Below the pieces are notes generated by a model that was not told the origin of the DNA, made no database searches, and saw only the letters and a list, made by a program, of their open reading frames with translations. A program made the position numbers and the translations under genes. From positions 1 to 29,112 of the IMG/VR virus record IMGVR_UViG_3300017758_000079: a stretch of 29,112 nucleotides of DNA; one strand, given 5' to 3'. This document shows positions 12,650-27,072 of this stretch, piece after piece. The stretch is from a virus. Positions within the stretch are counted from its first letter, which is position 1; each line of letters opens with the position of its first letter.

Positions 12650-12679
12650 TTTGGTTGTTTTATAAATTTGTCGTATATT
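12650..12679 (+). promoter_or_regulatory. Bacteroidota-type promoter upstream of the ssDNA-binding protein gene
   Basis: TTTG (12650-12653) is separated by 20 bases from TATATT (12674-12679). The same spacing occurs at 27042-27071 and nearly the same (19) at 14620-14648. Known Bacteroidota housekeeping promoters have a -33 TTTG-like box and a -7 TAnnTTTG box at about this distance. This is a strong candidate for early/middle expression by host polymerase. Confidence 0.55.
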
Positions 12680-14619: not shown

Positions 14620-14648
14620 TTTGATACCCGGAATATCTTTCGTATATT
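14620..14648 (+). promoter_or_regulatory. Promoter-like motif upstream of the 5' nuclease gene
   Basis: TTTG (14620-14623) is followed after 19 bases by TATATT (14643-14648), in the extended form TTTCGTATATT as at 27061-27071. Part of the motif lies in the loop and right arm of a perfect hairpin (14627-14653), so transcription and RNA structure may interact here. Confidence 0.5.
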
Positions 14649-20203: not shown

Positions 20204-20320
20204 ATGAATTATGAACCTTTAAGTAAAAAAATATTATTAGAAAGGGGATATTGTTGCAAAAATGGTTGCAAAAATTGTCCATATAAAACAAAAGATAAAG
20301 ATGGCAAAAGAATTAAATGA
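20204..20320 (+). CDS. DUF5522-like cysteine-rich microprotein (38 residues)
   Basis: The frame reads MNYEPLSKKILLERGYCCKN followed by GCKNCPYKTKDKDGKRIK. The motif ERGYCCxNGCxxCPY is characteristic of the short DUF5522-type proteins of Bacteroidota (as recalled: RGYCCGNGCRHCPY). Four cysteines at residues 17, 18, 22 and 25 could bind zinc or an iron-sulfur cluster; no function is known to me. It starts four bases after the barrel gene stop. Its 3' end overlaps the next gene by 20 bases if that gene starts at 20301. This looks like a host-derived or host-mimicking gene. The motif density makes chance unlikely despite the short length. Confidence 0.7.
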   Translation: MNYEPLSKKILLERGYCCKNGCKNCPYKTKDKDGKRIK

Positions 20321-20585
20321 AGATACAACTTTAAAATTAAGTATAAAAACTCTAGTAGGTATAGGAGTATTAATTTTTACTCTAGTAGGTATGTGGTTTA
20401 CATTACAAGCAGATATAGCTGAAGCTAAAGAACTTCCCATCGCACCACCACCTGATGTCACTAGAATGGAATATGATATGAAAGATCAACTCATTAGACA
20501 AACTATTATGACAACTCAAGATGATGTTAAAGAGTTAAAAGAACGCCTTGTTAGAATGGAAGAAAAGATTGATAAATTAAGATAA
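20301..20585 (+). CDS. Single-span membrane protein with C-terminal coiled coil
   Basis: With the start at 20301 the protein has 94 residues: a short charged N terminus (MAKELNEDTTLKLS), one membrane span at about 16-36 (LVGIGVLIFTLVGMWFTLQA), then a Pro-rich linker (LPIAPPPDVTR) and a charged coiled coil ending DDVKELKERLVRMEEKIDKL. An in-frame ATG at 20262 would add 13 residues but overlaps the cysteine microprotein by 59 bases, so 20301 is preferred. The span contains a 14-base direct repeat (ACTCTAGTAGGTAT at 20349 and 20379). The layout of an N-terminal anchor plus coiled coil recalls inner-membrane spanins, and a lipoprotein is encoded nearby, but this is only an architectural analogy. 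No family is recognised. Confidence 0.65.
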   Translation: MAKELNEDTTLKLSIKTLVGIGVLIFTLVGMWFTLQADIAEAKELPIAPPPDVTRMEYDMKDQLIRQTIMTTQDDVKELKERLVRMEEKIDKLR

Positions 20586-20592
20586 AATTCTT

Positions 20593-20937
20593 ATGAAAAA
20601 ATTATTTACATTACTATTATTTTTAATATTTTCTTTAGTAGTAAAATCCCAAGTAATACCGAGTGAAGGATTAATTATAGCTGAATTTAATGCCCCTTTT
20701 TCAGGAACTCAATGTGAATATCTAGATAAATTAACTGATTGTGATTTAGCAAAAATAGATATTTCAACCCAACCAAAATTACAATCAAAACACAAAATTG
20801 TAGTTGTACCAACTTTAATTGTGTTTTATGATGGAGAAGAAGTAGCAAGATTTCAAGCAAATATTATGATGAAGTTAGAAGTAACTAGAGAAGAAGTACA
20901 AGATAAGATTGATGAAACTATAATGTCAAACTTTTAA
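20593..20937 (+). CDS. Secreted thioredoxin-fold protein lacking CxxC
   Basis: The 114-residue protein has a signal peptide (MKKLFTLLLFLIFSLVVKS, cleavage before Gln20). The mature part reads IIAEFNAPFSGTQCEYLDKL, then DCDLAKIDIS, VVVPTLIVFYDGEEVARFQA, which follows the thioredoxin pattern, including the cis-Pro motif VPT and the 'FYDGEEVARF' strand pair. The active-site CxxC is replaced by FSGTQC with one cysteine, and a second cysteine lies in LTDCD; classical disulfide exchange by the usual motif is therefore unlikely. It is placed directly before the very cysteine-rich T9SS protein, 11 bases apart. A chaperone-like or atypical redox role in folding that protein in the periplasm is an attractive but unproven idea. 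Confidence 0.7.
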   Translation: MKKLFTLLLFLIFSLVVKSQVIPSEGLIIAEFNAPFSGTQCEYLDKLTDCDLAKIDISTQPKLQSKHKIVVVPTLIVFYDGEEVARFQANIMMKLEVTREEVQDKIDETIMSNF

Positions 20938-20948
20938 TATAAAAAACA

Positions 20949-23900
20949 ATGAAAAAACTACAGTTATTATTATTAATAATTTTAATACCTTTTTTAGGTT
21001 ATACACAAAATTCTTGGATTCATATCCAATTAATGACAGATAATTATCCTTCTGAAACAAGTTGGGATATTACCCCTCCAGGTGGTTCACCTATTATTAT
21101 AGAAAATGATAGCAATATGCTACCTAATACTTTATATGATACTATTGTTCAACTTGGTGGAACTATTATTGCAAGCATATATGATGAATATGGTGATGGT
21201 TTATCTTCCTCACAATTTGGTGGTACTGATGGTTGGTTTATGATTAGTAATTCATGTCAAGATACAATTATGTATGTTGCAGGTAATTTTGGAGATAGTT
21301 TAGTACAAACATTAACTATTGCTCCTTGTGCTCCTCCTCATGGAGGTTGTTTAGACCCAATAGCATTAAATTATGACTCTACAGCTACATTTTCAGATAG
21401 TTCTTGTATTTATCCTTTATGTAGTGGGTTAGATACTTTTTGGGTAGAAAATTTTTGTAATGTAGGTCAAAATAAAGTTTGGTACCATTGGAGTAATATG
21501 CCTAATCCTAATTGTAGAATGGCTTATTATACTAGAACAACAGATCCTAATACTCTAGGTAATACTTGGTATCCATACCCTATAAATTTTTCAAACACAG
21601 GTTTATTGTATAGTAACAGCCAACCAAATACTACTTATTACTTTTTAGGAATGTTAGCTGATTCAAGTTTAACAGATACTTTAGTAATAACAACAGGAGA
21701 ATGTATTCCTGGTTGTATGGATCCAACAGCTTTGAATTATAATCCTTGGGCAAATACAGATGATGGTTCATGTCAAGCACCTCCTGCAAATTGTGTAAAT
21801 GGAGAATCTAATATTGTAATAACAATTACACCAGATACTTATGCTGGAGAAACTTCTTGGGAAATTGCAGATACAACAGGTACAGTATTAGCAACATCAC
21901 CTAATTATACTATAACAGGAGTACCTGTAATATCAGAAATATGTGTACCAAATGGTACTGTAATAGAATTTACTTTATTTGATTCTTTTGGAGATGGTTT
22001 ATGTGGTTCATGTTATGGTGGAGTAGATGGTACAGCATTAGTTCAAACTTTATGTGGTGATACTTTATTATCAATATTACCAGGTAATGCAAATTTTGGA
22101 AATGATACTTCTGTAATTTATACTGTAACTCCTTGTACACCTAATATTATTTTAGGATGTACTACTCCAGGATTTACAGAATATAACCCACAAGCTAACA
22201 CTGATGATGGTTCTTGTTTAACTCCTATAGTAATTGGTTGCATAGACTCAACTTCACCTGATTATGACCCATTAGCAAATACAATGGATATAATTCCTAG
22301 TTGTGATTATACTTTAGTAATTACAGATGAAGCAGAAGATGGATGGTTTGGTGCATGGGTTGGTATATTACAAGATACTACAATATTAGGTCCTTTTATG
22401 ATGGGCCCTAATGATGGTTATTCAGAATCTTTTACAATTACTTTAAGTGCTTTAAATCCAGTTGAATTAATGTTTTTTGCTCCAGGCAATTCATCAACAA
22501 CAGCAAATCAATGTGGATTCTTTTTAATAGGTCCTGAAGGTGATACTACATTATCTGGTGGTACTAATCCTTGGACAGATCCTATGTTACAATTTCCATA
22601 TAGATATAATAATGTACCTTATTGTGGAGATTATTGTACACCTGGAGTTTTAGGTTGTATGGATCCTACAGCATTAAATTATGATAGTCTAGCTAATATG
22701 CCTGATACTTGTACTCCAGTTATTTTAGGTTGTACAAACAGTTTAGCATTTAATTTTAATCCAACTGCAAATGTAGATGATGGATCGTGTGAACCTATAA
22801 TAATAGGATGTATGGATTCAACTGCATTTAATTATAATCCTTCAGCAAACACAAATGATCCTTTGTCTTGTATACCTGTAATATTAGGATGTATGGATGA
22901 TACACAATTTAATTATAACCCAGCAGCAAATACAGATGATGGTAGTTGTATTCCAATAATATTTGGTTGCACTGACCCATTAGCTTATAATTTTGATTCA
23001 TTAGCTAATACTAATAATGGTTCATGTATACCAGTTATTTTAGGTTGTACTGACCCAACAGCTTTTAATTATAGTACTAATGCTAATACAGATGATGGTA
23101 GTTGTATTCCTGTAATAATTGGTTGTACTGACCCAACAGCATTAAATTATGATTCTTTAGCTAATACTAATAATGGGTGTATTTATCCAATTCTAGGTTG
23201 CACAGACCCTAATGCTTTTAATTTTAATGTAAATGCAAACACAGATGATGGTTCATGTGTACCTGAAGTTTTAGGATGTACTGATCCTACAGCTTTAAAC
23301 TATGATTCATTAGCAAACATAAATATAGGTTGTATTTACCCAATTTTAGGTTGTACTGACCCAACAGCATTTAATTATAATGTAAATGCAAATGTAGACG
23401 ATGGTTCATGTGTACCCTATATTTATGGATGTACCGATTCTACAGCTTTTAATTTTAACCCAACAGCAAATACAAATGTAGGATGCATTTACCCAATTTT
23501 AGGTTGTACAGATCCTACAATGTTTAATTTTGATCCATTAGCAAATACAGATGATGGTAGTTGTATTCCTTTTATCTATGGTTGTATGGATCCTATAATG
23601 TTTAATTATGACCCTAATGTTAATACTGATAATGGTTCGTGTATTCCTTTCATATATGGATGTACAGACTCAACGCAATATAATTTTGACCCAACAGCAA
23701 ATACAGACAATGGATCTTGTATACCCTACATATATGGTTGTACCGATAATACAGCACTTAATTTTAATATACTAGCAAATACACTAGATAATTCTTGTTG
23801 TTATATAGGAGGTTGTACTGACCCAACAGCAGTAAATTATGACCCAGATGCTTGTTTTGATGATGGGTCATGTGTTACACCAATTTCAGGTTGTACTGAC

Positions 23901-24350
23901 GTGTCTGCTTATAATTATGATCCTACAGCAAATGTTTCAGATACAACAGCTTGTTTATATGATGCTGGTTGTTATGGAGGACCTGGAATACCTTATTGGT
24001 TAAATGATGGATGTTATGCTTGGGTAATTGATGTTGATAATTATTGTTGTACTAATGACTGGGATGTAAGTTGCCAATCAATGTATAATTATTGTGAATT
24101 AGGTTGGCCTACTTCACTTGAAAATTTATCTACATTAGGTATAAGAGTTTATCCAAATCCTGCACAAGATATAGTAAATATTGATACTCGTTTAAATATT
24201 AAAGTAGAATTATATAATATAACAGGAGAATTAATATTAAAAGAAGAAAATTGTAAAAGAATTAATATGAGTGATTTTCCTTCTGGTATTTATCACGTGA
24301 TAATAATTTATCAAGAAAAAAGATTTATAAATAAAATAATTAAACAATAA
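20949..24350 (+). CDS. Cysteine-rich repeat surface protein with T9SS type A sorting domain
   Basis: The 1133-residue protein begins with a signal peptide (MKKLQLLLLIILIPFLGYT, cleavage near Gln20). Two related domains resembling Flavobacteriia extracellular modules appear early: TDNYPSETSWDITPPGG near 34-50 and PDTYAGETSWEIADTTG near 295-311, each followed by an acidic YGDGL or FGDGL turn. Twenty-one units of the form GC(T/M)DPTAxNYxPxANTDDGSC occur between residues 133 and 1002; units 5-21 are tandem. A Cys/Trp-rich segment (YCCTNDWDVSCQSMYNYC) follows. The last 70 residues are a typical Por-secretion/T9SS sorting domain: VYPNP (1067-1071), VELYNITGELI, INMSDFPSGIYHVIII, KIIK. It should be secreted across the outer membrane by the host type IX system and attached to, or released from, the surface. 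A role in adhesion, aggregation or surface shielding is inference; the T9SS tag is clear. Confidence 0.9.
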   Translation: MKKLQLLLLIILIPFLGYTQNSWIHIQLMTDNYPSETSWDITPPGGSPIIIENDSNMLPNTLYDTIVQLGGTIIASIYDEYGDGLSSSQFGGTDGWFMISNSCQDTIMYVAGNFGDSLVQTLTIAPCAPPHGGCLDPIALNYDSTATFSDSSCIYPLCSGLDTFWVENFCNVGQNKVWYHWSNMPNPNCRMAYYTRTTDPNTLGNTWYPYPINFSNTGLLYSNSQPNTTYYFLGMLADSSLTDTLVITTGECIPGCMDPTALNYNPWANTDDGSCQAPPANCVNGESNIVITITPDTYAGETSWEIADTTGTVLATSPNYTITGVPVISEICVPNGTVIEFTLFDSFGDGLCGSCYGGVDGTALVQTLCGDTLLSILPGNANFGNDTSVIYTVTPCTPNIILGCTTPGFTEYNPQANTDDGSCLTPIVIGCIDSTSPDYDPLANTMDIIPSCDYTLVITDEAEDGWFGAWVGILQDTTILGPFMMGPNDGYSESFTITLSALNPVELMFFAPGNSSTTANQCGFFLIGPEGDTTLSGGTNPWTDPMLQFPYRYNNVPYCGDYCTPGVLGCMDPTALNYDSLANMPDTCTPVILGCTNSLAFNFNPTANVDDGSCEPIIIGCMDSTAFNYNPSANTNDPLSCIPVILGCMDDTQFNYNPAANTDDGSCIPIIFGCTDPLAYNFDSLANTNNGSCIPVILGCTDPTAFNYSTNANTDDGSCIPVIIGCTDPTALNYDSLANTNNGCIYPILGCTDPNAFNFNVNANTDDGSCVPEVLGCTDPTALNYDSLANINIGCIYPILGCTDPTAFNYNVNANVDDGSCVPYIYGCTDSTAFNFNPTANTNVGCIYPILGCTDPTMFNFDPLANTDDGSCIPFIYGCMDPIMFNYDPNVNTDNGSCIPFIYGCTDSTQYNFDPTANTDNGSCIPYIYGCTDNTALNFNILANTLDNSCCYIGGCTDPTAVNYDPDACFDDGSCVTPISGCTDVSAYNYDPTANVSDTTACLYDAGCYGGPGIPYWLNDGCYAWVIDVDNYCCTNDWDVSCQSMYNYCELGWPTSLENLSTLGIRVYPNPAQDIVNIDTRLNIKVELYNITGELILKEENCKRINMSDFPSGIYHVIIIYQEKRFINKIIKQ
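22653..23954 (+). repeat. Tandem array of about 60-75 bp coding repeats (17 units)
   Basis: Within the T9SS protein, residues 569-1002 hold 17 successive Cys...Cys units of 20-22 core residues joined by short linkers such as IPVIL, IYPIL or VPYIY. DNA identity is high between some units: GGTTGTACTGACCCAACAGC occurs exactly four times (near 23043, 23120, 23351 and 23813). This suggests recent unit duplication or recombination, so copy number may vary between related phages. Confidence 0.9.
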
Positions 24351-24358
24351 AAACAAAA

Positions 24359-24910
24359 ATGAAAAATTTATTTACCCTTATATTAACAACATTCTTAGTT
24401 ATTGGATGTGGAAGTGATAAAAAAGTAGACCCAGCTTTAGCTGGAATGATACAAGAAGATGGTTCAATTTTAAATGTAAAAATGGATCCTGCAACAGTTA
24501 CTTTATATGTAGTAAACAATACAGATCAACTAATTTATTGGCACAGAACTATGGGTATGGATAAAAATGATGTATATGATACTATTGCTATAGGTGATAC
24601 ATTACTTTCAAATTCAAATACTCAACCATTAGCAGGGGCAACTTCATTTATAGGTACAATTTTACCTCCAAAAGGATTAACTAGTATATCTCCTAGTAAT
24701 GGTAATTGGAATTATGAATATGGATTTGATGGTAGTAATACTATGAAAATAAATAACGAAAATGATGGTGGAGGACCAATGCCAGGTAATGCTACAGCAA
24801 GATCAGCAACTTGGGTATATGAAACAGAATTTAAAGATGGAAACCCATCATCAATTAATAATACTATAACATTTACAACTTCTGTATGGCCTAAACCTAC
24901 AGTTAAATAA
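24359..24910 (+). CDS. Predicted lipoprotein of unknown function
   Basis: The 183-residue protein starts with a lipoprotein signal, MKNLFTLILTTFLVIGCGSD, with lipobox VIGC and lipidated Cys17. The residues after Cys (GSDKK) do not clearly match the acidic lipoprotein surface-export signals of Bacteroidota, so it may stay facing the periplasm or reach the surface; this is unresolved. The mature part reads like beta-sandwich material (VTLYVVNNTDQLIYWHRTM) with a Gly/Pro/Asn-rich section (NENDGGGPMPGN). I recognise no domain. It begins nine bases after the T9SS protein gene, so the two are probably co-expressed, and the holin-like gene follows. Confidence 0.65.
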   Translation: MKNLFTLILTTFLVIGCGSDKKVDPALAGMIQEDGSILNVKMDPATVTLYVVNNTDQLIYWHRTMGMDKNDVYDTIAIGDTLLSNSNTQPLAGATSFIGTILPPKGLTSISPSNGNWNYEYGFDGSNTMKINNENDGGGPMPGNATARSATWVYETEFKDGNPSSINNTITFTTSVWPKPTVK

Positions 24911-24959: not shown

Positions 24960-25175
24960 ATGTGGTCAATATTTAAAAATGATAATGAGTGGAATGAAAA
25001 AACTGTAGTAGGTTTTATTGCATTTTTAGTAATGGTATTATTTGCTTTATTAGATTTATTAACTGGATACACAGGTAAAGATTTAGTAATTAATGAAACA
25101 ATATATGATTCATTTACATGGGTTGTAATAGGTTGTTTTGGAATAGCAGGAGTTGAAAAATTTGCAAAAAAATAA
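24960..25175 (+). CDS. Putative holin (small two-span membrane protein)
   Basis: The 71-residue protein has two hydrophobic spans, at about 16-37 (TVVGFIAFLVMVLFALLDLL) and 52-66 (FTWVVIGCFGIAG), joined by a short loop (TGKDLVINETIYDS). It has a charged N terminus (WSIFKNDNEWNEK) and a Lys-rich C terminus (EKFAKK). This is the layout of class II holins, which time lysis by opening the inner membrane. It lies seven bases before the YkuD-like peptidase gene, a common holin-endolysin arrangement. No named family is recognised with certainty. Preceding it are 49 bases with a TATATTAATTATAAAATA stretch that loosely resembles the late-type motif. Confidence 0.55.
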   Translation: MWSIFKNDNEWNEKTVVGFIAFLVMVLFALLDLLTGYTGKDLVINETIYDSFTWVVIGCFGIAGVEKFAKK

Positions 25176-25182
25176 TTAAATT

Positions 25183-25791
25183 ATGAGTTGTTATACAAGA
25201 GAACAAATTGAAGAAACGATGATTAGTAAGGGTTATAAATACTTTACTGGTGGAGATTATGATGTTAATATTATAGGTGTAAGAAATTCAAAAACTAAAA
25301 ATAGAGTTACTAATGCATTTGATGATTGTATAACTTTATCTTATAAATTAGATAATGAATGGAAATTTCATTGCTTTAAATGTACAACAGACCCAGGGAC
25401 ACATTGGGTAGAAAATTTATTAAACCCAAATGGTGTAGCAATTTTAAAACCAGGACAATACAGAAGTTCTCATAAAATTGGTTTACATCAAGGAAAATAT
25501 GAGGCATTAAGACAAGCTAAACCTTTAGAAGTTTATCGTGATGATAATACTGATGGAGTTTATGATTGTTTAGAAGAAGATATTGAAAAAGGTATTTTTG
25601 GGATTAACATCCATAGAGCAACAGCTAAAACAGGAGGTAAATCAACTCGAGTAGATAAATGGTCGGCTGGTTGTCAAGTAATTGCTTCAAATGAAGATTT
25701 TGCGGTGTTTATGAAAATTTTACGCCAAGCTAGAGATGTTTGGGGTAATTCATTTACTTATACTCTTATTGAGTCTAAAGATATTGTTTAA
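25183..25791 (+). CDS. YkuD-like (L,D-transpeptidase-fold) peptidase, possible endolysin
   Basis: The 202-residue protein has the catalytic arrangement of YkuD-like proteins: His144 in GINIHRA, then 16 residues, then SAGC (161-164) with Cys164 as likely nucleophile (family pattern H-x14-17-[ST]-x-G-C). Other ordered segments are FDDCITLSYKLDNEWKFHCF (46-65) and LKPGQYRSSHKIGLHQGKY (88-106). There is no signal peptide, so export would need the adjacent holin-like protein. YkuD enzymes act on peptidoglycan stem peptides. The residue after the Cys (Gln) differs from the common Arg/Val, so the specificity is uncertain. Its place after a holin-like gene supports a lysis role. An alternative is a virion or cell-wall-modifying enzyme. 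Confidence 0.55.
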   Translation: MSCYTREQIEETMISKGYKYFTGGDYDVNIIGVRNSKTKNRVTNAFDDCITLSYKLDNEWKFHCFKCTTDPGTHWVENLLNPNGVAILKPGQYRSSHKIGLHQGKYEALRQAKPLEVYRDDNTDGVYDCLEEDIEKGIFGINIHRATAKTGGKSTRVDKWSAGCQVIASNEDFAVFMKILRQARDVWGNSFTYTLIESKDIV

Positions 25792-27041: not shown

Positions 27042-27072
27042 TTTGGTTTATTAAAAAATTTTTCGTATATTT
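27042..27072 (+). promoter_or_regulatory. Bacteroidota-type promoter upstream of the 27097 gene
   Basis: TTTG (27042-27045), 20 bases, then TATATTT (27066-27072) in the context TTTTTCGTATATTTATC. The whole segment parallels 12650-12682 upstream of the ssDNA-binding protein gene, including TTTGGTT and the same spacing. It starts right after the preceding stop codon. Confidence 0.6.

Follow-up and report, generated by a model that had tools for sequence, protein, structure and literature searches.

Phage-encoded cargo of the type IX secretion system (T9SS) has already been described (PMC7468147, PMC6949934). Cryophage, a 76-kb phage of ice habitats reported in 2020, carries three variable cargos with T9SS type A sorting domains, namely an endoglucanase, a GH39 protein and a PA14-domain protein, and the sections of the report that deal with them describe no fixed partner genes; its authors too propose that the phage hijacks the host's export machinery and excludes superinfecting phages (PMC7468147). 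The gut phages with BACON repeats reported in 2019 are likewise Bacteroidota phages with T9SS sorting domains, in open reading frames near head genes, but differ in having BACON-repeat proteins, and the relevant part of that paper reports no shared module (PMC6949934). On the bacterial side, Prevotella intermedia is the only species reported to have C-terminal sorting domains (CTDs) of both lengths, short ones of ~40-55 residues working beside the long ones, and the short form needs no more than a motif B loop with two strands after it (PMC11969387). CTDs can be species-specific: the portion of one study that addresses this records that a CTD of one species did not work in another (PMC11285876).

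Here, we describe a 29,112-nucleotide stretch of viral DNA, IMG/VR virus record IMGVR_UViG_3300017758_000079 (hereafter the window), with a gene for such a cargo. Like Cryophage, it has a phage gene with a T9SS type A sorting domain; unlike Cryophage, as far as the latter's report describes it, the records considered here carry one Cys-repeat cargo each, within a conserved four-gene module whose tag takes either of two exchangeable forms. The T9SS type A cargo of Flavobacterium, such as NucA, resembles the phage cargo in CTD sequence and predicted fold, whereas the present cargo is phage-encoded and its body is a Cys repeat protein. No earlier report of the module or of the short tag was found in open-licence papers; what appears to be new is the module, how widely it occurs and the exchange of tags.

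The cargo gene and its sorting domain

The window contains genes for a tail tube, a baseplate hub and wedge, SSB, a UvsX-like protein and an exonuclease, together with a DnaB-like helicase and RNR. The preliminary description had called the phage T4-like; it is a myovirus with T4-type genes, to which that label is only loosely apt. A scan of viral contigs yielded 33 relatives of the cargo, the longest of their contigs measuring 231 kb. Contigs from other metagenomes, L002, L003 and L008 (100%) and L004 (89% cargo identity), have the same gene order around the cargo, and in L002, L004 and L008 the shared order spans the replication genes, the cargo and an endolysin gene.

Features of the module and its neighbors in the window (positions are those of the window)
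Feature	Coordinates	Strand	Basis or remark
Module gene 1: signal peptide and predicted outer-membrane beta-barrel, 347 aa	19156..20199	+	AF2 barrel; porin-like fold matches
Module gene 2: one TM segment, Pro-rich linker, coiled coil	20262..20585	+	alignment A4, read from sequence
Module gene 3: signal peptide and thioredoxin fold without CXXC	20593..20937	+	Pfam Thioredoxin
T9SS cargo gene, 1133 aa	20949..24350	+	ORF; Por_Secre_tail over cut-off; 33 viral loci with homologues
Cargo signal peptide MKKLQLLLLIILIPFLGYT, Q at +1 (Bacteroidetes Q-rule)	20949..21005	+	read from sequence
Cargo N-terminal beta-rich domains with four scattered Cys repeats	21006..22652	+	
17 tandem 25-27-aa repeats GC(T/M)DPxAxNYxPxANTDDGSCxPxIx in cargo	22653..23966	+	
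Cys-rich domain PYWLNDxCYAWVIDVDxYCCxxxWDxxC, precedes tag	23967..24125	+	conserved columns, cargo alignment A1
T9SS type A C-terminal sorting domain of cargo	24147..24347	+	profile matches; fold match
Two-TM small protein, holin-like	24960..25175	+	often adjoins module
Endolysin-related protein adjoining module	25183..25791	+	phrog_3000 and phrog_33083 endolysin

Three elements had been claimed for the cargo beforehand: a signal peptide, 21 Cys-bounded repeats and a T9SS type A sorting domain. All three are present. The signal peptide is followed by Q, and Q directly after the cleavage site is the Bacteroidetes Q-rule (PMC5837995). By a heuristic, 72 of 72 N-termini in the cargo family are signal-peptide-like, against ~31% of background plus-strand ORFs. 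There are exactly 21 GC..D..A.NY...DDGSC units, four of them scattered (at residues 133, 255, 403 and 430) and 17 in a tandem array over residues 569-1006 with a period of 78 bases, or 26 aa (TRF). Repeat number differs among the relatives. FN3-like fold matches over the repeats were dropped as functional evidence, the full-length model being poor there. The repeats also have weak matches to T4 Y03C.

The sorting domain exceeds the cut-offs of both T9SS models. Residues 1067-1131 match Pfam Por_Secre_tail (45.2 bits, cut-off 27), and residues 1067-1133, up to the extreme C-terminus, match positions 1-72 of 72 of NCBIfam TIGR04183 (37.2 bits, cut-off 23); a search of the whole record gives this as its single sorting-domain match (E 1e-12). 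An AlphaFold2 model of the domain has seven strands, as in the Ig-like fold of T9SS type A CTDs, at a pLDDT of about 68-84, and by Foldseek it resembles the sorting domain of NucA as solved within the T9SS translocon (8glk_D; TM-score by target 0.75, 2.3 Å over 73 columns, 33% identity). A profile built from 16 phage CTDs matches 8glk, 8glj and gingipain CTDs in the PDB. TIGR04183 is retained in 16 of 17 full-length cargo homologues, and 36 of 50 viral records have exactly one over-cut-off CTD. The remaining 14 comprise 12 with a short tag instead, one that is cut off (L088) and one without the module (L034); loss of the CTD in the 12 module-bearing records was considered and ruled out when inspection revealed the short tag. 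Between the window and L004, dN/dS is 0.17 for the cargo, and that of the long tag (0.19) likewise points to purifying selection. From the sequence features, we consider it highly likely that this phage gene product is exported via Sec and then the host T9SS. The preliminary description holds as to a genuine phage-encoded type A sorting domain and signal peptide, from which we infer secretion itself; it had not noted the four-gene module, the exchangeable tag or the earlier reports of phage-encoded T9SS cargo.

Several further features of the window were recorded. Exact copies of TCGTATATT occur at 12671-12679, 14640-14648 and 27063-27071, each in a short intergenic gap and close upstream of a gene, and with at most one mismatch there are 21 sites against 11.8 expected, making it a candidate phage promoter element. 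The Bacteroidota -7 promoter motif gave no useful signal in the gaps examined. At 1293-1597, in the gap 3' of the baseplate hub gene, an open frame without an obvious ATG overlaps the end of the hub gene, possibly a small tail gene or a frameshifted extension. A lipoprotein-like gene downstream of the cargo (24359-24910) is present only in near-identical relatives.

A conserved module of four genes

The cargo is part of a module with a predicted outer-membrane beta-barrel, a small membrane/coiled-coil protein and a CXXC-less thioredoxin-fold protein. When loci were found by the barrel gene alone and kept if they had enough flank on both sides, all four genes lay on one strand in 32 of 32, in three cyclic orders. 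The barrel gene occurs in at least 579 IMG/VR stretches, and dN/dS across the four genes is 0.09-0.21 (window versus L004). Such conservation suggests that the four products are likely to act together.

Gene 1 is modeled as a barrel (AF2, mean pLDDT 69.5), and its best fold matches in the PDB are porins and outer-membrane barrels. It has no family in Pfam, PHROGs or NCBIfam, and tblastn against 50,697 GenBank phage records returned no match to it or to gene 2. It was also considered as a PorV or PorP/SprF barrel of the T9SS, a candidate that was rejected: there was no NCBIfam match at E<=1, and the fold search led to generic porins. The barrel gene is phage-specific. Gene 2 probably starts at 20304, and its comparison with known lysis families, spanins being the question, gave matches at chance level only. 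Gene 3 reaches 25.9 bits against Pfam Thioredoxin (cut-off 23.5) and has one weak tblastn match among the same phage records. At the active-site position it has NAxWNxxNxVEWL (alignment A3) in place of CXXC, which rules it out as an active disulfide catalyst for the Cys-rich cargo. Holin-like and endolysin-related genes frequently lie near the module, in the window and in many relatives, and the holin-like family is found in 22 of 81 dereplicated loci. Second large ORFs near the module in L104 (817-5079, 1421 aa) and L107 (5105-9607, 1501 aa) match the N-terminal domains of the cargo weakly.

A short tag and the putative host family

Of 73 modules, 54 have the long sorting domain on the cargo; the other 19 have in its place a C-terminal tag of ~38 residues with the consensus KKLhxITDhLGRPxKxxKNxLLFYIYDDGTVEKKhhK. 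The two interchange on homologous cargo. On a gene 1 tree of the same 73 rows, at least three changes of tag are forced by starred branches and six by parsimony, counts that are approximate as this is a quick tree; all fall within one clade. L084, with neither tag in frame, was left out of the count; a little further downstream its DNA does encode the short tag, though not in line with the Cys domain of the cargo. No model in Pfam or NCBIfam, TIGR04183 included, fits the short tag. That it is a mere truncation of the long CTD is unsupported by hhalign, which aligns the two at a non-significant probability of 3%.

The same tag is found in bacteria. Among 198 sampled Bacteroidota it occurs in 13 places in a Flavobacteriales MAG, G052, and in one other genome. 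All 52 genomes of the marine family to which G052 belongs carry it, with 2 to 50 occurrences per genome, versus a single one of the 197 other Bacteroidota sampled; in the order as a whole, 57 of 148 genomes have it, nearly all <=2 Mb. In the copies examined the host tags are strictly C-terminal, most of the intact ORFs have a signal peptide, and in genomes of the family such as L121, L134 and L142 many signal-peptide proteins end in it. The 52 genomes also hold 20-64 long sorting domains each, SprA is present in 44 of them, and the cargo-type Cys repeat is present in all; given how widely host proteins use this repeat, the cargo probably arose by combining pieces of host origin. G052 itself has a copy of the module, which is taken as a binned phage contig because UvsX, DnaB, RNR and endolysin genes lie on the same contig.

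Because the tag is exchanged with the long CTD on homologous cargo, because the putative hosts that use it bear a T9SS and because P. intermedia offers a precedent, the short tag is probably a T9SS signal. By description, the phage and Flavobacteriales tag (TDhLGR...NxLLFYIYDDGTVEKK) may be likened to the P. intermedia CTDs, and it would likewise be used by the T9SS. Where CTDs are species-specific, a phage would gain from carrying the tag of its local host. A Shine-Dalgarno core is found upstream of 0 of 25 window genes, versus ~7% by chance per site, and an absence of such motifs is expected of Bacteroidota. Together with the tag of the host family, SprA in that family and, as a heuristic, Q at +1, this indicates that the module-bearing phages very probably infect Bacteroidota.

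Possible roles at the envelope of the infected cell

Phages alter the surfaces of the cells they infect. To our knowledge, a conserved viral module that uses a dedicated host secretion machine has hardly been studied. The signal peptide, the sorting domain, conservation of the module, the tag swap and purifying selection are all there to be read in the sequences, and in the explanation that we find rather probable, the T9SS-exported cargo and its three phage-specific partners would alter the envelope of the infected cell. An infected Bacteroidota cell would export the cargo through Sec, then through its own T9SS, to the cell surface. The barrel would sit in the outer membrane and the coiled-coil protein would be anchored in the inner membrane, while the redox-dead thioredoxin-fold protein would occupy the periplasm. 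We infer surface anchoring, formation of a complex, timing and purpose, the four products jointly remodeling the envelope, probably late in infection. There is a slightly less than even chance that they amount to a widespread, previously unnamed phage machine spanning the envelope, made of inner-membrane, periplasmic and outer-membrane proteins plus T9SS cargo, with tags exchanged to match Flavobacteriales hosts, one of them an undescribed short T9SS signal on many host proteins.

As for purpose, exclusion or receptor masking, by which adsorption of competing or sister phages would be blocked, ranks as the likeliest, and we put it forward tentatively. The uses listed in the preliminary description, namely blocked adsorption, clumping, deterrence of grazers and a coat for virions, are reasonable candidates. 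As the repeats are a common host module, more than one kind of surface role would suit the cargo. A lysis role also fits, given the proximity of holin and endolysin genes. Under it, the four proteins would do the work of spanins at lysis, either weakening the Bacteroidota outer membrane or bridging it; an inner-membrane coiled coil with an outer-membrane partner resembles the two-membrane layout of spanins. However, membrane fusion needs no repeat protein of 600-1600 aa exported outside the cell, nor did the comparison with known lysis families show a sequence link to spanins, and we regard this role in egress as doubtful. It is also conceivable, but unlikely, that the cargo is an adhesin by which infected cells or debris stick to cells or particles, increasing contact between virions and hosts, or else a shield against grazers. 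In fold, its beta-sandwich domains are akin to FN3-type domains and to adhesins, GhpA and SiiE among them, at weak TM-scores, and repeat number varies between relatives, yet adhesion leaves the dedicated barrel, coiled-coil and thioredoxin-like partners unexplained.

A virion structural protein with a vestigial sorting domain might be proposed from residues 483-637, which are weakly similar to a virion structural protein of Synechococcus phage S-CAM3 (31%, E 7e-4). This is highly improbable: signal peptides are kept across the cargo family, and the tag, besides being under purifying selection, is kept or exchanged for another host tag, not lost. That a host gene was fused to phage DNA by misassembly, or captured recently without function, has a negligible probability, common as the repeat and CTD are in hosts, for the preliminary description's concern about a chimera with host DNA was not borne out; misassembly is excluded because independent contigs from other metagenomes repeat the gene order, and the barrel occurs in one of the 52 host-family genomes, its sole copy on a phage contig, and the module is intact in every one of the 32 loci.

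Taken together, our results favor a T9SS-exported cargo that, with its three partners, alters the envelope of the infected cell. If true, phages would be manipulating the T9SS across marine Bacteroidota, the hosts of uncultivated phages could be recognized by the export tag, and the tag swap would be a natural experiment defining a new short T9SS signal.
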